A stretch of DNA of 64,000 nt, taken from contig CADBDT010000004.1 in NCBI GenBank assembly GCA_902793465.1, positions 124,001 through 188,000 of the forward strand. Reading direction: 5' to 3'. Numbering within the stretch: the first letter of the stretch is position 1; each line of letters opens with the position of its first letter. Made by a program: the position numbers and the translations under genes. Shown here one piece after another: positions 2,638 to 63,569 of this stretch. The notes below the pieces were generated by a model. It was not told the origin of the DNA. It searched no databases and saw nothing but the letters and a program-made list of their open reading frames with translations. The stretch is from an uncultured Coriobacteriaceae bacterium (GTDB lineage: Bacteria; Actinomycetota; Coriobacteriia; Coriobacteriales; Atopobiaceae).

Positions 2638-3438
2638 CTACTTGTTGCCGAGCGTGCGATAGAGCTCGGGGCGTCGGTGGTCGAACACGGGCATGGCGTC
2701 GCGTGCGTCGCAAAACCGCTGCGGGCTTATCCTGCACACCAAAAGCTCGTCGCTCCCGCTTGCCACTGCGTTGCCCAGCGGGTCGAACACGTGGCTGTGG
2801 CCCACATAGCGCTCCGCTCTGTGGCAGATGCCCGCCACATAGCATTCGTTCTCGATGGCACGGGCGCGAAGGAGCGTCTCCCAATGTAAGGGCTTGTTTG
2901 GGCCGTCGTGCCATGCAGCGGGAAACACAAGCATGTCGCAGCCCTCAAGTGCCAACGCGCGGGCATATTCGGGAAAGCGCAAGTCGTAGCATATGCCCAC
3001 GCCCAACGTACAAAATGGCGTGCGGATTGGCGAGCAGAGCTGCGATCCTGGAGTCATGCGATCGGACTCGCGTACGCCGTGTGCGTCGTAAAGGTGACAC
3101 TTGCGATACGTGCCCCGCACTTCGCCGGTATTGCTCACGACCACCGCCGTGTTAAACGGTGGACCGCCCTGCGGGTTCGTTTCGCTCATGGTAAACACGA
3201 TCCAAATGCCCGATTCCCGAGCCATGTCGCAGACGGCACGCACATACGGGCCGTCCAGAGGTTCGGAGAGCTCGGCGAGCTCGCGTGCGGAAAGCTCGCG
3301 CGGGCACATGAGGTTTTCGGGGAACGCCAGCAGGTCGACGCCGCGTTCGCGCGCGCTTGCGACAACGCGACCTACGTTTCGCAGCACGTCTCCGTCCTCG
3401 GGAAAGGAGGTCTGGGGTATTCCGAGCGTAAAGTCCAC
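2638..3438 (-). CDS. Carbon-nitrogen hydrolase (nitrilase superfamily, omega-amidase/Nit2-like)
   Basis: A 266-residue protein with the complete nitrilase catalytic set: Glu41 (FPEN), Lys112 (YRKCHLYD) and Cys149 (GICYDLRFPE). The GICYDLRFPE and FPAAW segments are most like Nit2/omega-amidase members, which hydrolyse omega-amides such as 2-oxoglutaramate; the substrate here is inferred. I chose the GTG at 3436-3438 because a GGAG sits six bases upstream. An in-frame extension to 3789 exists but overlaps the deformylase gene antiparallel-free on the same strand and has no family similarity. It lies downstream of def on the same strand, with a 56-bp gap, and ends next to the 73-bp repeat array. 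Confidence 0.88.
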   Translation of the reverse strand: MDFTLGIPQTSFPEDGDVLRNVGRVVASARERGVDLLAFPENLMCPRELSARELAELSEPLDGPYVRAVCDMARESGIWIVFTMSETNPQGGPPFNTAVVVSNTGEVRGTYRKCHLYDAHGVRESDRMTPGSQLCSPIRTPFCTLGVGICYDLRFPEYARALALEGCDMLVFPAAWHDGPNKPLHWETLLRARAIENECYVAGICHRAERYVGHSHVFDPLGNAVASGSDELLVCRISPQRFCDARDAMPVFDHRRPELYRTLGNK

Positions 3439-11839: not shown

Positions 11840-11865
11840 CTGTAGTAAGAGGGGTACTCCCACCG

Positions 11866-12014
11866 CCATTAAGCTAGCGCTGTGCACATTGGGGATATTC
11901 CCCTGCGGGTACATCGCGGATGAGCCGGACCCCAACGGAGGCCCTGCTCGCGATGTACCCGATGGGGAGTATCCCCTATGTGCACAGCTCCCCCAGACCC
12001 TTAACTAAATGGCG
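11866..12014. repeat. GTACATCGCG-core palindromic element, GCCATTAAG-armed subtype
   Basis: The element lies between convergent nikE-like and msrA genes. The centre reads GGGTACATCGCGGATGAGCC .. CTGCTCGCGATGTACCC. Flanking arms GCTGTGCACAT (11879) and ATGTGCACAGC (ending 11988) pair, with GGGGATATTCCCC and GGGGAGTATCCCC inside them. An outermost imperfect pair is GCCATTAAGCTAG / CTTAACTAAATGGC. The whole would form a hairpin of about 70 pairs. It has no U-tract, so it is not a classical terminator on either strand. Near-identical relatives occur at 15667 and 63395. Confidence 0.85.
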
Positions 12015-12017
12015 TTG

Positions 12018-12105
12018 GGTACTCCCCCTTGATAGGCACCAATCAAGAGGGGTACTCCCCCTTGATAGGCACCAATCAAGAGGGGTACTCCCCCTTGATA
12101 GGTAC
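12018..12105. repeat. 33-bp tandem repeat of the CCTTGATAGG family
   Basis: Nearly three copies of a 33-bp unit lie head to tail, with ACTCCCCCTTGATAGG at 12021, 12054 and 12087, separated by CACCAATCAAGAGGGGT. Each unit is itself palindromic (ATCAAGAGGGGTACTCCCCCTTGAT), so the array can fold into alternative hairpins. The same palindrome recurs as single or double elements at 17701, 51092 and 58301. The array and the adjacent GTACATCGCG element fill the 301-bp gap between the importer operon and msrA; I see nothing else there. Confidence 0.8.
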
Positions 12106-15666: not shown

Positions 15667-15870
15667 GGGGTGCCGCTTGGGGATACTCCCCCTGCCATTA
15701 AGTTAGCGCTGTGCACATTGGGGATATTCCCCTGCGGGTACATCGCGGATGAGCCGACCTTAAACGAAAGCCCTGCTCGCGATGTACCCGATGGGGAGTA
15801 TCCCCAATGTGCACAGCTCCCCCAGACCCTTAACTAAATGGCATTGGAGAGTATCCCCAAGCGGCACCCC
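15667..15870. repeat. Nested GTACATCGCG-core palindromic element
   Basis: The outermost arms are a perfect 22-bp pair: GGGGTGCCGCTTGGGGATAC.. at 15667 and ..GTATCCCCAAGCGGCACCCC ending at 15870. Inside are GCCATTAAGTTAG / CTTAACTAAATGGC, then GCTGTGCACATTGGGGATATTCC-type arms, then the GTACATCGCGGATGAGCC / CTGCTCGCGATGTAC core. It lies between the convergent GH1 and EAL genes and fills that gap. It is nearly the element at 11866 plus an added outer layer. Confidence 0.85.
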
Positions 15871-17601: not shown

Positions 17602-17700
17602 TGCTGCCGTCCTCTCGAATGCTACATCGAGTATACAGCGCAAGCCAAGAAACGCTGAGCTAACCCCTTTACGGCTAAATTCGTCGGGGGAGGGGTCGTT

Positions 17701-17790
17701 TGCCGTTGACCTATCAAAGGGGGTACTCCCCCTTGATAGGTCGCTTGCGACCTATCAAAGGGGAGTACCCCCTTTGATAGGTCAACGGCA
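17701..17790. repeat. Double CCTATCAA palindrome
   Basis: Two palindromes of the CCTATCAAAGGGGG / CCCCCTTGATAGG family lie side by side, and the whole 90-bp unit is a larger palindrome: TGCCGTTGACCTATCAAAGG at the left end pairs with CCTTTGATAGGTCAACGGCA at the right, around TCGCTTGCGA. It lies between the EAL gene promoter side and the stop of the cation-efflux gene. There is no T-run after either stem. Confidence 0.85.
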
Positions 17791-17802
17791 ACAGGGGTTG
17801 TG

Positions 17803-26799: not shown

Positions 26800-26935
26800 C
26801 CCCTAGACAAAGGCCATGCCAGGAGGCGCCATGGATAAGCGCTGTGCTCAAACAGTCCTCGCTTCGCTTCGCTCACTGCGGAACTGCGCGCGGCCGCTTT
26901 CCATAGCGCCTCCTGGCATGGCCTTTGTCTAGGGG
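26800..26935. repeat. Palindromic element with GTGCTCAAACAGTCCTCGC core
   Basis: 36-bp arms (CCCCTAGACAAAGGCCATGC.. at 26800-26835 and its complement at 26900-26935, one mismatch) flank a 64-base core containing GTGCTCAAACAGTCCTCGC and CTGCGGAACTGCGCGCGGC. The core and inner arm (GGCGCCATGGA) recur at 39742 with entirely different outer arms. It lies in the 306-bp gap between the SGNH hydrolase and yebC; apart from it and the yebC promoter region I see nothing there. Confidence 0.85.
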
Positions 26936-28864: not shown

Positions 28865-28971
28865 GGTGCCGTGAGGGGATACTCCCCTACGGGTACATCG
28901 CGGATGGGCCTTCTCGTAGGGGAATGGCCTACTCGCGATGTACCCGATGGGGAGTATCCCCTCACGGCACC
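28865..28971. repeat. GTACATCGCG-core palindromic element
   Basis: Arms GGTGCCGTGAGGGGATACTC at 28865 and GAGTATCCCCTCACGGCACC ending 28971 are perfect complements, around the GTACATCGCG / CGCGATGTAC core. It starts about ten bases after the J-domain gene stop and precedes the LCP gene on the same strand. The rest of the gap to 29127 shows no gene beyond the LCP leader. Confidence 0.85.
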
Positions 28972-30426: not shown

Positions 30427-30433
30427 ATCTTGC

Positions 30434-30552
30434 TGCGTGGTGTGCCGTCTGGGGATACTCCTCTACGGGTACATTGCGGATGAGTCCCTCGTAAGGGAAC
30501 GGCCTGTTCACGATGTACCCGATGGGGAATAACCCAGACGGCACACCACGCA
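30434..30552. repeat. GTACATCGCG-core palindromic element, variant arms
   Basis: Outer arms TGCGTGGTGTGCCGTCTGGG and CCCAGACGGCACACCACGCA are a perfect 20-bp pair, unlike the arms of the other copies, while the centre (GGGTACATTGCGGATGAG / TGTTCACGATGTACCC) is a slightly degenerate version of the shared core. It sits eight bases after the LCP stop. Confidence 0.85.
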
Positions 30553-30657
30553 GTATGCCCGCGTGCCGACAAACGCGCCGAATTCGCACCTTCTGCCGTG
30601 CATGTTTGATGGCTAAAAGGGTATCCTCAATACCGTGCATATCTTAGGAGGTCAACC

Positions 30658-32761: not shown

Positions 32762-32872
32762 TGGGGTGCACGAAGGGGATACTCCCGCTAGGGTACGTCG
32801 CGGATAGCTCTCCCATAACACGACGGCAACACGCAACGTACCCTAGAGGGAATATCCCCTTCGTGCGCCCCA
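32762..32872. repeat. GTACATCGCG-core palindromic element, divergent copy
   Basis: Arms TGGGGTGCACGAAGGGGAT and ATCCCCTTCGTGCGCCCCA pair with one mismatch. The centre is degenerate (AGGGTACGTCGCGGATAG / ACGCAACGTACCCT), and the inner GATACTCCCGC differs from other copies. It lies between asp23 and the acyltransferase gene and fills much of the gap. Confidence 0.8.
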
Positions 32873-39710: not shown

Positions 39711-39741
39711 GTGAGATCGTCTCCTTGCTCTTTGTTTGCCT

Positions 39742-39864
39742 CCAAGCGGGGTCCCAATCCGTAAGGCGCCATGGACAAGCACCGTGCTCAAACAGTCCTC
39801 GCTGCGCTGCGGAACTGCGCGCGGCTGCTTTTCATGGCGCTCTACGGATTGGGACCCCGCTTGG
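39742..39864. repeat. Palindromic element with GTGCTCAAACAGTCCTCGC core, second copy
   Basis: Arms of 34 bp (CCAAGCGGGGTCCCAATCCG.. at 39742-39775 and its complement at 39831-39864) flank a core sharing GTGCTCAAACAGTCCTCGCT and CTGCGGAACTGCGCGCGGC with the copy at 26800. The innermost arm GGCGCCATGGA is also shared, but the outer arm has no similarity to the one at 26800. The right arm overlaps the 3' end of the YfhO gene, supplying its last codons and stop. Confidence 0.85.
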
Positions 39865-42736
39865 GGGTAGGGCTCTTTGGGGGCATGGTGCTCTTGCTGC
39901 GCATGCGCAACACCACGGCCATAATCGCAACACCAAGCAGCCCGATGCCGGTAACAACAAATCCGAGTACCAAGCCAGGCGTTTGGTAGCGAAGCTCTAT
40001 GTCGTGATGTCCGGCAGGCAGGTCGAGCGCCATAAAGCCGGTGTCCGCACGAAGAATTTGTGCTGGAGCGCCATCCACATACGCCTGCCAGCCGTCGCTG
40101 TAGGCAACGGTAAGCAGGAGGGTTTGCGGGTTGTTAAGGTCTATGCTGCCAGTTAGGGTGTTGCATCCCTGCTTGGCGTCTTGAAGGACGGCAGTTGCTC
40201 GCTCGGCTATCCACTCGCTTTGGTGCTCGTGGGTTTGGGTAACAACCTTAAAATCGTCGAAGGTATATATGCCGGGCGCGCTAAACGTAATCGTAATGGT
40301 GGTCGCGGGCTCCTGAGCATAGCCGAGGTTTGCAAGCCACGTGCTTTTGCCGCCGTACATGTGGTTGGACGGTGTGCTGTTGGTAATTGGTCCCGAGATG
40401 TTGCAAACGTTGCTCTTTGCGGTTACCACGTGGTCTGTTACGGCAACATGCGTAATGTCTTGGAGTAGGAGGTTTGCCTTGTAGTGCCACAGCATTTCGG
40501 CCTTGGCCTCTTCCGAAACAAAGGAGGAGGGGAGGGCGTCGTGAAGCACTAGGTTGGAGAAGTACACATACGTATCTGCATTTGGCGTGCCCTCCACCGT
40601 TAGGGTAATGCTTGCGTTGCCGTGATCCACAACAAATTGTTTGTCCTCAACGCGCACGCCCGAGCTGCCAGCCACCTGGAATCCCACGTTCTTGTCTTCG
40701 AACGTTAGGCTGGAGACGTCGCATTTGCCGGCACCGGACCCATTGAGCCTCTGCGCGTCGTCCTCCAGTACGATTGCTTGCAAGAGTGCCTGTTGTCGCT
40801 GGGCAGGCGTGAGCGTCATGTAGTCCTGGTGGCTCAGATACTTGTTGAATGCGAATCCTATGGGAAGCGACTGCTGCGCCTCCACGAGCTGGTGGTTGAG
40901 TCCCATAGCCTCCTGCTGCGCTATTACGCGGTCGGGCAAGAAACCGTAGGGTAGGGTGTCGGTGCCGTCGTCGCGATACACGTAGTAGCGCACTCCCAAA
41001 AGCGCCATGAGGTCCGAGCGGCCCTGCAGGTTTAAGTAGCGGAAGTTTATGTAGTCGCCAATTATTGCCAGCTCCGTATGAAAGGCATCCACGTTACCGT
41101 TGTACACGCTGTTGTAGAAGTCGATTCCCTGCAGGCCCAGGACCAGGCTGTTGTTGGGAATACGGTTTACCAGGGCAAGAACAAGCTGTCCCTCGTCGTA
41201 GCGCCACCATTGGTCCTTGGGCGCAATGGTTGCTACGAGGTCGTTGGATTCGGCCGTGAGTTTTTTGTATGCCATGCCCAGCGGCGTTTGCATATGGCCC
41301 ATGCCACCTTCGCTCGAGGCCAAAAAGTAGAACCCGTTAACCACCAGCGTAAGGGAGAGAGCAAGCGTTAGCGGCAGGCGCGAGGAACCGTTGCCAAAGG
41401 CAACTATAATCGCAAGCGCCGCAAGGAGTGCCCCGAATCCGGCAACGGTTGCCTCGATGCGAAAATGATCAAGAAGAAACAGCAGCGCATAGATGGCCGA
41501 GCCAACAAACAAGGTGCGCATCATCCGCGGGGTGGGGGAAAGCAGCTGTGGGGTCATGCGTGCTAGCACAAGGCTCACGCACAGCGTGTACGCCCACGCA
41601 AAGCGATTTGTGGCGTAGTTCATACCGTTAAAGAAGCTTCCGACGTAAGGGAGCAAAAGACACGCAGAAAGTACCAGGAACACAAGCTTGAGCTCCTTGT
41701 TTTGCTCCTTGCGCGAAAACAGCATTAGGCAGGCAAAAAACCCTACGCCGCCAAGGCCTTGGTATGTGTCGCTGCCTACCTCCTGTGTGGAAAGGAAGGT
41801 GGACAAGATTTCCACTACAAGTTGGGGGCTGTAGAACAGCGGCACCTCGGTCGCCTGCTCGACCAGACGGTTCATGCCCATAAGGGCCACTCCTGCAGGC
41901 ACAAGTGCAAAGCCGGCAATAAGCAGGCAGAGGACTACGAGCCCGGCAAAGATGCCCACCCACCTAAGGAACTTACGCACGGTTAGGTTTGGACGCTCTA
42001 CCATAATTACGCGTATGGCAAGATAGCCAACAAGCAGTATGCAAGCCATATAGGTAAAGTAATAGGAAACGATTGCAAGTAGCGAGAGCGATGCCACAAA
42101 CACCCATGGGCGCTTGCCTTCCAAAATACGCTCTGCACCAGCAAGGATTATGGGAAAGAGCATGAGCGCATGGAGGCCGCTTGCCCAGCGTACTGCCGTA
42201 AGACCTGCGCCGCTTAGGGCATAAAGGAGCGCTCCGAGCACCGTGCCAGTGCGGTTTTCTCCTCTGGTCCTGCAATAAAAGACAAAGGCTAGGCCAGAAA
42301 TATAGAGACGTACCACAATAAGGAGCTGAAAAACCCACTCGCTTATGGACGGCGGCGTAATGCCCGACACTAGGTTAAGGGGGTCCAAAAACACATCGAA
42401 GGTGGTGGGAATGTCTGCACCATATCCGCTGCACCACTCCCATAAGGGTACCTGCAGGCCCTGGCCCGAAAAGAGGCTGCCAAAGATTTCGCGAAGCCAC
42501 TGTCCTTCGTAAATAAAAAAGGGATAGTACTGTCCCAGGCCGTCTATGTTCCAAATTATCTCTCGACCGCTTAGGGGCAGCGCAATATACGTAAGTATAA
42601 AGAGGGGTATAAAGAGCAACGAGTAAGCGTGGTAGCAGCCGCGTCCCATATGCTTGGGAGACTTGCTCTCCCATTCGACGAGTGCCTTTTCTTTGCCATG
42701 CGCCCACTGGCCAATACGTGATGCTAGCTTTGTCAT
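39842..42736 (-). CDS. YfhO family polytopic membrane protein (GT-C-like)
   Basis: A 964-residue membrane protein with about 13 helices and a large extracytoplasmic domain in the C-terminal half (about 510-900). The start region (SGREIIWNIDGLGQYYPFFIYEGQWLREIF) and GYGADIPTTFDVFLDPLNLVS are typical of YfhO, which in Bacillus and Listeria glycosylates lipoteichoic acid. It should use a polyprenyl-phosphate sugar outside the cell, which fits the nearby GtrB-like enzyme and SMR pair. The last residues, KRGPNP, come from the palindromic element at 39742. Confidence 0.9.
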   Translation of the reverse strand: MTKLASRIGQWAHGKEKALVEWESKSPKHMGRGCYHAYSLLFIPLFILTYIALPLSGREIIWNIDGLGQYYPFFIYEGQWLREIFGSLFSGQGLQVPLWEWCSGYGADIPTTFDVFLDPLNLVSGITPPSISEWVFQLLIVVRLYISGLAFVFYCRTRGENRTGTVLGALLYALSGAGLTAVRWASGLHALMLFPIILAGAERILEGKRPWVFVASLSLLAIVSYYFTYMACILLVGYLAIRVIMVERPNLTVRKFLRWVGIFAGLVVLCLLIAGFALVPAGVALMGMNRLVEQATEVPLFYSPQLVVEILSTFLSTQEVGSDTYQGLGGVGFFACLMLFSRKEQNKELKLVFLVLSACLLLPYVGSFFNGMNYATNRFAWAYTLCVSLVLARMTPQLLSPTPRMMRTLFVGSAIYALLFLLDHFRIEATVAGFGALLAALAIIVAFGNGSSRLPLTLALSLTLVVNGFYFLASSEGGMGHMQTPLGMAYKKLTAESNDLVATIAPKDQWWRYDEGQLVLALVNRIPNNSLVLGLQGIDFYNSVYNGNVDAFHTELAIIGDYINFRYLNLQGRSDLMALLGVRYYVYRDDGTDTLPYGFLPDRVIAQQEAMGLNHQLVEAQQSLPIGFAFNKYLSHQDYMTLTPAQRQQALLQAIVLEDDAQRLNGSGAGKCDVSSLTFEDKNVGFQVAGSSGVRVEDKQFVVDHGNASITLTVEGTPNADTYVYFSNLVLHDALPSSFVSEEAKAEMLWHYKANLLLQDITHVAVTDHVVTAKSNVCNISGPITNSTPSNHMYGGKSTWLANLGYAQEPATTITITFSAPGIYTFDDFKVVTQTHEHQSEWIAERATAVLQDAKQGCNTLTGSIDLNNPQTLLLTVAYSDGWQAYVDGAPAQILRADTGFMALDLPAGHHDIELRYQTPGLVLGFVVTGIGLLGVAIMAVVLRMRSKSTMPPKSPTPKRGPNP

Positions 42737-43501: not shown

Positions 43502-43625
43502 GAGGCTGTCCGAAAAGTACGTGCGGGGGTGCCACCCATTGCGTGCCCGAAGTTCAACGTCGCAGGTACGGGGGATTGTTGGTGCGCAAGGCTGTCACCC
43601 CCGCACGTACTTTTCGGACAGCCTC
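43502..43625. repeat. Long perfect inverted repeat, 30-bp arms
   Basis: GAGGCTGTCCGAAAAGTACG.. (43502-43531) and its exact complement (43596-43625) flank a 64-base loop that holds GTGCCACCC, TTGCGTGCC and GGTGCGCAA. The GTCCGAAAA part recurs in the outer arms of the element at 60684. With the shorter palindrome at 43436 it fills the 288-bp gap between two convergent genes. A weak AAAGGT/ACCTTT hairpin with ATTTT follows at about 43650 and may serve as a terminator. Confidence 0.85.
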
Positions 43626-50046: not shown

Positions 50047-51093
50047 ATGGCGCAGGAACATCTGATTACTAACGCTTCGGGTCCGCTCCTAAACGAGGAC
50101 GGGAGCCTGAGGGAACCAGGCTATGCATTTGCACCGCCCTTCGAGTACAGTCACGACCGTATTGCAGCCTCGCCTCTTCGTATTAAGGACTGGGATTACT
50201 ACTTGGCAAACGACGACGAGTACGCCGTTTGCCTTACGTTTTCGGACCTTGGCTACATAGGCCTTGTGTCTGCGAGCGTGCTCGACTTTGCCAACCGTAC
50301 ATACAAGACCACCAGCGAGCTTCTTGTAATGCCGCTCGGACGCATGGGCTTGCCAACGAGTTCGGACGTGGGCGACATAGAATGGCAGAACAAGCGGTGT
50401 CGGGTTCACTTTGCCCATACGCCTGCTGGAAGGCGACTCTCGTTCTTCATGGCTCGCTTTGACGGCGACGAGGAGCTGGACGTGGAGCTTCTTCTGGACG
50501 AGCCTCCACGTGACTCGATGGTTATCTGCACGCCGTGGGCCACTAACCCAAAGGCGTTCTACTACAACCGCAAGATTCTGGGCATGCGTGCCCGTGGCGG
50601 TTTTAGGAAGGGGGCGCTCTCTCACGAGTTCGACCGCTCGCAGTCGCTTGGCCTGCTGGATTGGGGTCGCGGCGTGTGGACATACAACAACACTTGGTAT
50701 TGGGCGGCTATCCAAGGGCACGTGGACGGGCACGTTGTTGCGCTCAACCTTGGCTACGGATTTGGCGATACAAGCGCCGCAAGCGAGAACATGCTGTTTG
50801 TGGATGGCATTGCGCACAAGCTGGGCCTCGTAGACTTTGGCATGCCAGTCCTTCCCGATGGGAGCTACGACTACCTGGAGCCATGGCATATAACCGATCA
50901 GGATGGCAGGCTTGACCTCGCGTTTTCTCCCGAGATCGACCGCGTGGACAACATAGACGTCGCAGGGGTCGTGTCCTCGAAGCAGCATCAGGTCTTTGGC
51001 AAGGTTTCCGGTTACGCCGTGCTCGACGATGGCTCGAGGCTCGAGCTCGAGGGAATCCGCGGCAGTGCGGAGCACATACACAACAAGTACTGA
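50047..51093 (+). CDS. DUF2804 family protein
   Basis: A 348-residue protein matching the DUF2804 pattern: N-terminal LITNASGPLLNEDGSLREPGYAF, RIKDWDYYLAND, and WTYNNTWYWAAIQGHVDGH. The family is found in bacteria and some eukaryotes and has no established activity that I know; its fold suggests a sugar- or lipid-binding beta-barrel. It may be cotranscribed with the EIIB-ROK gene, and GGAGGGAAGGGG precedes the ATG. Confidence 0.85.
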   Translation: MAQEHLITNASGPLLNEDGSLREPGYAFAPPFEYSHDRIAASPLRIKDWDYYLANDDEYAVCLTFSDLGYIGLVSASVLDFANRTYKTTSELLVMPLGRMGLPTSSDVGDIEWQNKRCRVHFAHTPAGRRLSFFMARFDGDEELDVELLLDEPPRDSMVICTPWATNPKAFYYNRKILGMRARGGFRKGALSHEFDRSQSLGLLDWGRGVWTYNNTWYWAAIQGHVDGHVVALNLGYGFGDTSAASENMLFVDGIAHKLGLVDFGMPVLPDGSYDYLEPWHITDQDGRLDLAFSPEIDRVDNIDVAGVVSSKQHQVFGKVSGYAVLDDGSRLELEGIRGSAEHIHNKY

Positions 51094-51132
51094 CCTATCA
51101 AAGGGGGAGTACGAAAACTCGCGAAGAAGTGG

Positions 51133-51236
51133 GTGCCGTAAGGGGATACTCCCCATCGGGTACATCGCGAGTTAGCAATTCCCTACGATAGGGCCTATCC
51201 GCGATGTACCCGTAGGGGAATATCCCCTTACGGCAC
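51133..51236. repeat. GTACATCGCG-core palindromic element inside a CCTATCAA pair
   Basis: Arms GTGCCGTAAGGGGATACTCC.. (51133) and ..TATCCCCTTACGGCAC (ending 51236) flank the core GGGTACATCGCGAGTTAG / CCTATCCGCGATGTACCCG, in the opposite orientation to most copies. It is enclosed by GACCTATCAAAGGGGGAGTA (51092) and CTCCTGATAGGTC (51257-51269), which pair as an outer stem from the second element family. The 257-bp gap to the next gene holds nothing else. Confidence 0.8.
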
Positions 51237-51350
51237 TCCGTTTACGAACAGCCTGCTCCTGATAGGTCAAAAGTGCCCTGAGCGCCTGCTCGCTTTTCGT
51301 TAATATAGTCCTGTAGGAACCAGCGCCATTTGGACGATAAGAGGCCCATT

Positions 51351-52904: not shown

Positions 52905-52943
52905 GGAGCTGTGCCCATTGGGATTGCTCCCGCCATTAAGTTA

Positions 52944-53035
52944 GTGCGACTGAGGGGATACTCCCTCCAGTTCCATGCGTGCCCGTCGCAGCTACGAGCA
53001 CTGAGGAACTGGAGGGAGTATCCCCTCAGTCGTAC
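52944..53035. repeat. 31-bp-armed palindrome with GGGGATACTCCC module
   Basis: Arms GTGCGACTGAGGGGATACTC.. (52944-52974) and ..GAGTATCCCCTCAGTCGTAC (53005-53035) are complementary except for one base pair, around a 30-base loop. The stem contains the GGGGATACTCCC module of the GTACATCGCG family, and GCCATTAAGTTAG (seen in other members' outer arms) lies just upstream, but the core is absent. It lies between the convergent CmpB and talC genes. Confidence 0.8.
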
Positions 53036-53083
53036 TCCCGCGATTTAGCATAAAAGCAGTTTCGGACTTTCATCCACCGTCCT

Positions 53084-60683: not shown

Positions 60684-60838
60684 CGGGGTGTCCGAAAACG
60701 GGGTGCCGTGAGGGGATACTCCCCTACGGGTACATCGCGGATAGGTCCCTCGTAAGGAGAAGGCCTGCTCGCGATGTACCCGAGGGGGAGTATCCCCTCA
60801 CGGCACCCCACATCGCCACAAGTTTTCGGACAGCCCCG
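60684..60838. repeat. Nested GTACATCGCG-core palindromic element
   Basis: Outer arms CGGGGTGTCCGAAAAC (60684) and GTTTTCGGACAGCCCCG (ending 60838) pair; inside are GGGGTGCCGTGAGGGGATAC.. and its complement (60700-60809), identical in part to the element at 28865, around the core GGGTACATCGCGGATAGG / CTGCTCGCGATGTACCC. It starts about 25 bases after the SpoIIE gene stop. Confidence 0.85.
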
Positions 60839-63319: not shown

Positions 63320-63393
63320 ATCGTGTACGTCGCGAGGAGCCCGCCTCATCATGAAGGGACTATCCGCGATGTACCCGTAGGGGAGCATCCCAA
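63320..63393. repeat. Degenerate partial GTACATCGCG-core element
   Basis: GTGTACGTCGCGAGGAG and GACTATCCGCGATGTACCCG keep the core halves of the family, but the left arm is degenerate and the outer stem lost. It lies directly beside the intact copy at 63395, 20 bases after the murB stop. Confidence 0.6.
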
Positions 63394-63394
63394 C

Positions 63395-63546
63395 GCCATT
63401 TGGTTAAGGGTCTGGGGGCGCTGTGCACATAGGGGATATTCCCCTACGGGTACATCGCGGATGAGCCGGCCTCCAACGTAAGCCCTGCTCGCGATGTACC
63501 CGATGGGGAGTATCCCCCCCTATGTGCACAGCGCTAACTTAATGGC
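63395..63546. repeat. GTACATCGCG-core palindromic element, GCCATTAAG-armed subtype
   Basis: Outer GCCATTTGGTTAAG / CTTAATGGC and inner GCGCTGTGCACATAGGGG.. / ..CTATGTGCACAGCGC (63418-63534) surround the core GGGTACATCGCGGATGAGCC / CTGCTCGCGATGTACCC. It is closest to the copies at 11866 and 15667. It fills the gap between the convergent murB and DUF711 genes. Confidence 0.85.
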
Positions 63547-63569
63547 AGTGGGAGTATCCCCGATATCTC

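Follow-up and report, generated by a model that had tools for sequence, protein, structure and literature searches.

The window analysed here, a stretch of 64,000 nucleotides that corresponds to positions 124001-188000 of contig C4 in a genome of 3.1 Mb and 68 contigs (G000), carries at 15667-15870 a large palindrome that encloses another. Bases 15667-15688 are the exact reverse complement of bases 15849-15870 (22/22), and the 149-bp unit lying between them, at 15694-15842, is the same as the unit at 11865-12013; the original prediction that 15667 has an extra perfect 22-bp layer around the structure seen near 11866 was thereby borne out. The locus consists of three parts:

15667-15690, no strand: outer B element, left arm, whose last bases form the target-like site GGGATACTCCC (15680-15690); recognized by the 22/22 reverse complement and by its arm type, GTGCCnnnnGGGGATACTCCCC.
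15694-15842, plus strand: A element, a 149-bp MITE-like unit and one of 47 copies; it has an internal core of its own (15736-15789), and A's ends include the three bases on either side of the unit.
15846-15870, no strand: right arm of the outer B element, with B's own core absent; a degenerate B end, CCATCACGGACTCGCCGA, then follows.

When 15667-15870 is folded as single-stranded DNA, a single nested hairpin of -85.4 kcal/mol results, as against -29.0 ± 3.5 kcal/mol for 200 shuffles (z -16), and across the window 66 overlapping 20-mers have an exact reverse complement no more than 260 nt away, as against 0 in 50 first-order Markov sequences. The layering at 15667 is a palindrome inside a palindrome, and chance does not produce such structure.

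The layers are separate repeat families, designated C, B and A. Family C comprises the REP-like hairpin CCTATCAAGGGGGAGTACCCC and its relatives, whose half-sites (≤3 mismatches) number 211 in G000, 49 in G015 and 0-3 per genome in the remaining 14 of the genus. Elements of family B are about 150 bp long, with ends GGCTGTCCGAAAA, arms GTGCCnnnnGGGGATACTCCCC and the core GGGTACATCGCG...CGCGATGTACCC, and a search with the 19-base end (≤3 mismatches) returned 54 matches. A G-rich putative target duplicate of B can be made out by reading at L047 and at a few other loci. The analysis revealed no autonomous partner for B, and B is probably mobile. Family A has ends A(A/C)CGCCATTAAGTTA and an internal core of a B-like kind, and of its 47 copies listed with an end 27 measure 149 bp. 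The core half-site CGGGTACATCGCGGAT (≤1 mismatch) occurs 229 times in G000 and once in the genus-mate G002 (86% complete), and is absent from the remaining 38 of the 40 genomes searched; at least one contig in a scan of genome contigs carries arm and core joined. Eight viral contigs matched a 16-base half of the core, none of them with the neighbouring arm, and these matches were taken as chance. Other cores lie between similar arms at 52943 in the window and at C1:55051, and five core-less mini-palindromes with the same arms as B were found; the pattern GTGCCNNNNGGGGANNNTCCCCNNNNGGCAC, with 492 sites, includes ordinary arms and is not a count of mini-palindromes, 5 of its 11 exact sites being self-complementary. 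Because most loci were drawn from the surroundings of the first 100 core matches listed, families without this core are under-sampled. At L029 (1447-1601) the core unit and half its arms are tandemly duplicated. L185, L186 and L188 represent another family, which has A-type ends and a tandem interior of the GTGTACAGT / GTGCGCAC type, at roughly 0.35-0.5 kb.

Elsewhere in the window the same families stand alone, side by side or one within another:

11851-12027, plus strand: A element (11865-12013) with a copy of GGGTACTCCC on each side.
17700-17791, no strand: C-type palindrome pair (CCTATCAAAGGGGGTACTCCCCC...) with 45-nt arms (98%).
28865-28971, no strand: B arms with a core.
30433-30553, no strand: B-like arms with a diverged core.
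32762-32872, no strand: B-like arms with a diverged core.
51091-51268, no strand: C hairpin stem (TGACCTATCA / TGATAGGTC) around a B element with its core (51107-51251).
52943-53036, no strand: palindrome whose arms are GGGGATACTCCC and whose core differs.
60685-60836, no strand: B element with a core, both of its ends being present (GTGTCCGAAAAC...GTTTTCGGAC).
63323-63560, minus strand: truncated B with a core (63323-63376), then an A element (63395-63546).

The unit at 11865 matches that at 15667 but has a partial outer layer too, with GGGGTACTCCC on both flanks and, to its right only, an arm of a C-type hairpin; tandem C hairpins lie to the right of 11851-12027 and reach about 12110. Similarly, the GTCCGAAAAC sequence that had been described as an added layer at 60684 is present, but as the normal end of family B at 60685 rather than as an extra layer. 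The stem said to enclose an element at 51092-51269 is real, being the C stem around a cored B, and modules do, as claimed, recur in different combinations. An A-type end, GCCATTAAGTTAG (about 52932-52944), adjoins the palindrome at 52943, and its partner end was not found there, while the A element at 63395-63546 has the near-direct flanks GGGATACTCCC / GGGATGCTCCC when read on the minus strand. Three further repeats were seen in the window: two copies of a long inverted repeat (26800-26935 and 39739-39867), with arms of about 51 nt (GGCGCCATGG...) and a sequence unrelated to A, B or C; B-type ends GGCTGTCCGAAAA around a different interior without the core at 43504-43623; and, outside the three families, short inverted repeats clustered around ACGCAAACGCGTGCATCT at 2176-2376.

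The flanks of A have a common form. The motif GGGN3-6CCC is found at 38 of 47 left and 26 of 30 right flanks, as against 0.6% of random 16-mers from the window, and GGG-N4/5-CCC sites are present in C, B and A, either in an arm or at the centre. Copies of A and the insertion sequence (IS) described below both occupy such sites, which are duplicated over 10-12 bp. Pairing of the flanks was assessed with the 30 A copies that have both ends, 17 of the 47 being excluded for an unrecognizable second end or too short a flank. When shifts of up to two bases are permitted, the flanking 11-mers match their own partners directly at 8.7 of 11 positions (7.8 when shuffled), and at 9.6 (8.7 when shuffled) if the better of the direct and inverted matches is taken, neither value being reached in any of 3000 shuffles (n=30). 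In a fixed register (n=30), P is 0.0027 for direct matches, 0.20 for inverted ones and 0.00005 for the better of both. Direct flanks are perfect (11/11) in 8 of the 30 copies, and many others are imperfect or inverted. The outer arms of A are readable in 23 of the 30 and complementary in 6 of these 23, a number reached in 1 of 5000 shuffles (shuffled mean 1.05), so that most A copies are without a symmetric outer layer.

The only match to DDE_Tnp_1 in G000, at L068, is the single intact gene of this kind found there. It is a single ORF of 446 aa that scores 132 bits against NF033592 (IS4 family; cut-off 115) and carries the YREK signature YHMRWGVETCFQFMK at 306, fitting Y(2)R(3)E(6)K; D119, D198 and E313 have spacings of 79 and 115, within D(60-110)D(100-150)E, where the pair of D residues was picked by sequence context and is thus the analyst's choice. 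The IS has ends (C)AATGTCATTAACTTA on both sides and is flanked by GGGATACTCC, duplicated over 10-12 bp (the length depends on end placement); these features fit the end pattern -AATR--------WTW and the 10-13 bp direct repeats of subgroup IS4 (De Palmenaer 2008, PMC2266710). The element lies within one arm of an A copy and has GGGGATACTCCC on either side. A relative in G010, 86% identical, has GGGGACAGCCCC on both sides and, on a reading by eye, lies centrally in a short GC inverted repeat, and a full IS in G013 has the inverted flanks GGGACTGTCCC and GGGACAGTCCC. The ends of A are similar, not identical, to the AATGTCATTAACTTA ends of the IS. Ends closer to those of A, e.g. ACCGCCATTAAGTTAAG, belong to elements of other species (G002, G008, G013 and G015), and 7 of the 8 flanks fetched for them read GGGG-N4/5-CCC; the search of the genus with an IS-end pattern had a noisy control, control matches equalling true ones at two mismatches in several genomes. 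A remnant with such an A-like end sits in a B arm of G000 (L184). Being short and multi-copy, with similar terminal inverted repeats and the same type of target duplication, A resembles a MITE of the IS4-family IS, and, as far as this likeness of sequence goes, the IS4 transposase would be the enzyme that moves it. The transposase pattern gave four matches in viral contigs, none of them a relative, and a tblastn search of plasmids gave 164 records, all at <60% identity, with the ten listed at 27-28%. The sole PF01797 gene of G000 (L066, 1040-2000) encodes a RAYT-like Y1 transposase (33.9, cut-off 23) that has an E value of 2e-14 and 53.7 bits against the RAYT model NF047646, under its cut-off of 80; inverted pairs of C hairpins lie on either side of this gene.

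The stems of these elements are variable in sequence and strongly paired. Counting A copies, 104 core elements have both arms; in these, the four bases that separate GTGCC from GGGGATACTCCCC occur in 34 forms, and these inner bases are fully paired in 90 of the 104, as against a mean of 9.1 and a maximum of 21 in 2000 shuffles, a comparison that serves as a guide only, the copies being interrelated. Over nine stem positions there are 59 mismatches, consisting of 10 G-T, 11 A-C and 38 others. Since this is no wobble excess, arm copying at the DNA level is preferred over selection on RNA, and the arms are probably kept complementary mainly by palindrome-templated copying; arm copying of this kind has been proposed for RNA stems (PMC8794818). 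With regard to genomic position, 40 of the 100 core elements with both neighbours called lie in convergent gaps, as against a window baseline of 10 of 47 gene pairs, and 3' gene ends make up 130 of their 200 sides, at a median distance of 107 bp, although these counts rest on crude ORF calls that place 12 of 107 core elements inside a called ORF. According to Tobes and Pareja (2006, PMC1525189), REPs too are often located in convergent gaps. The convergent-gap bias, the closeness to 3' gene ends and the strong pairing of the stems are what would be seen if the palindromes were selected as functional RNA or DNA structures, e.g. bidirectional terminators between convergent genes, with the layering arising from selection on stem length. 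That explanation is nevertheless improbable, given the near equality of G-T and A-C mismatches, the lack of any Rfam match in the window at gathering thresholds, the restriction of the core family to 2 of 40 genomes (a single copy in the second) and the presence of duplicated joints.

These joints, together with the arms that they interrupt, bear on the order in which the layers arose. At L057, an intact B element that has kept its core carries an A copy in its right arm, with the 11-bp direct duplicate GGGAGTATCCC on either side, and the left arm displays the unsplit form of the right. Direct duplicates accompanied by a retained core are also perfect at L010 and L083, and imperfect at L035 and at 63395-63546 of the window. 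At L047, a C pair encloses a B element; the joints read CTCAAGGGGG and CTGAGGGGGG, the remainder of the C unit lies beyond, and the arrangement at 51091-51268 is the same. Because the inner element splits an arm whose partner arm is uninterrupted, it is the later of the two where the order is readable, and the inner unit is younger than the outer layer where that order is legible. The original prediction had left the choice between repeated insertion and outward growth of palindromes; the first is supported by the joints, duplicated over 10-12 bp, at which A units, an IS of the IS4 family and a B unit lie inside other palindromes (L057, L010, L083, L069 and L047), and the second is not supported, arms being split from within. 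Outward growth, in which inverted arms are added round an existing palindrome, e.g. by template switching at its base, so that the outer layer is the younger, would be in keeping with outer layers that are perfect palindromes and with the copying between arms that the stems show. It is, however, very improbable, because the outer layers are not arbitrary flanks but recurrent families that stand alone (the five mini-palindromes, the 211 C half-sites and cored B), because A at L057 splits one arm and leaves the other unsplit, and because at one locus the outer B end is common to G002.

That locus emerged from a comparison with one genome per species. The segment G000:C2:1-1200, beside a tRNA-Pro gene, has its orthologue at the beginning of contig 103 of G002, with flanks 93% and 83% identical; G002 has a B element with its core there, and G000 has the same B end, CTGTTCGTAAACTCGTGATGG, with a GTGTACAGT-type interior and a different right arm. 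This agrees with an older outer layer and is weak evidence, from one locus in two species. The interior in this B remnant beside the tRNA-Pro gene is a piece of the GTGTACAGT / GTGCGCAC type (L134, about 230-560). At the gene ends of genus-mates that are orthologous to those at 11865 and 15667, synteny stops at the gap, and no empty site is definable. The orthologues of the gene before 15667 (L114, about 2950-3180, in G002; L102, about 2970-3230, in G012; L115, about 2960-3240, in G001) are followed by other large palindromes, partly layered, which carry the motif CAAAACCCCAG; extended by NT, this motif has 2-20 occurrences in each of the 16 genomes of the genus, as against 0-2 for controls.

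The orientation of the duplicated flanks differs with the state of the outer element. A copies between core-less B arms, that at 15667 included, have inverted flanks in 7 of 7 cases (L088:719 by just 7 to 6), and A copies in core-bearing B arms have direct flanks in 5 of 5, a difference (Fisher, 0.0013) between classes that were set after the data had been seen and in which L010 was reassigned by its variant core. In C hairpins, flanks are direct in six of eight A copies, inverted in one and tied in one. As simple duplication would give direct flanks, inverted ones need an extra step of core loss or repair. At 15667, A would have entered one B arm, as at L057, after which the core hairpin of B would have been lost between two copies of GGGGANNNTCCCC; core loss between these copies is the likely course. 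Alternatively, A entered a core-less mini-palindrome and its direct duplicates were later inverted by palindrome-templated repair, in which case 15667 never had a B core. Five core-less mini-palindromes with matching arms do exist, stem complementarity is maintained in 90 of 104 elements, and template-switch repair of imperfect palindromes has been reported (PMC8794818). Even so, this route is rather unlikely, since the combination of symmetric B arms, an A copy and still-direct flanks occurs in 0 of the 30 copies, whereas core-bearing B arms with direct flanks occur five times, and since only 5 of the 11 exact pattern sites are mini-palindromes, a small number beside 104 cored elements with both arms.

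The layered palindromes are, with good probability, nested insertions of small non-coding mobile elements, added from inside. The outer layer would be a C-type REP-like hairpin or a B element, and the 149-bp MITE A, or the IS4-family IS, would enter a GGG-N4/5-CCC site in the arm or centre of that layer, its insertion duplicating the joint over 10-12 bp. Since this site is nearly palindromic, the duplicates would mimic a palindromic layer, and, since A carries two such target sites, nesting can continue. It is conceivable, and is put forward tentatively, that the nesting is self-seeding, i.e. that a MITE carrying the near-palindromic target of its transposase twice is inserted so as to seed targets in itself as well as in older REP-like palindromes, with arm copying keeping the layers palindromic. 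Since layered palindromes of other kinds follow the same gene in further species of the genus, nesting may be a genus-wide mode of intergenic evolution. A layered palindrome would thus become a readable order of arrival, the outer layer being older and the inner one younger. The findings also suggest that an IS4-family element and its MITE target the axis of repetitive palindromes, their own included, and the approximately 100 natural stems with arm-matched variable bases constitute a data set for separating palindrome copying at the DNA level from selection on RNA.

Several known systems share part of this organization. REP/BIME hairpins, with the usual motif GTAG, flank RAYT (TnpA-REP) genes, and the C hairpins likewise form inverted pairs on both sides of a Y1 transposase gene, although that gene falls under the cut-off of the RAYT model. 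BOX elements are mosaic intergenic repeats whose modules are variously combined between genes; modules are variously combined here as well, but they lie concentrically and have a palindromic joint in common. In Bacillus cereus, IS231 and the non-autonomous elements related to it have the target GGG-N5-CCC, a type of target also seen here, whereas IS231 ends begin CAT... and those here (C)AAT/AAC..., and the host group is another. Duplicates of 10-12 bp (PMC2266710) are likewise common to both. With subgroup IS4, the IS at L068 shares the transposase signature, the end pattern and the repeat length, while a GGG-N4/5-CCC target within REP-like hairpins and a palindromic MITE are features here that were not found in the account of that subgroup consulted in part (PMC2266710). 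Among the open-licence papers searched, for nested palindromes, MITEs whose targets are palindromic, insertions into REPs, RAYT genes of Actinobacteria and MITEs of Eggerthellaceae, PMC1525189 alone came close. The nearest precedent described there is ISRm22, an IS4-family element inserted in REPs of Sinorhizobium meliloti with direct repeats, the insertion point being the axis of palindromy (PMC1525189). Both cases involve IS4-family insertion in extragenic palindromes with direct repeats; but ISRm22 is a full IS with 6-bp repeats, whereas the inserted element here is mainly a MITE with 10-12 bp duplicates, and one that carries its own target, so that the palindromes nest concentrically.
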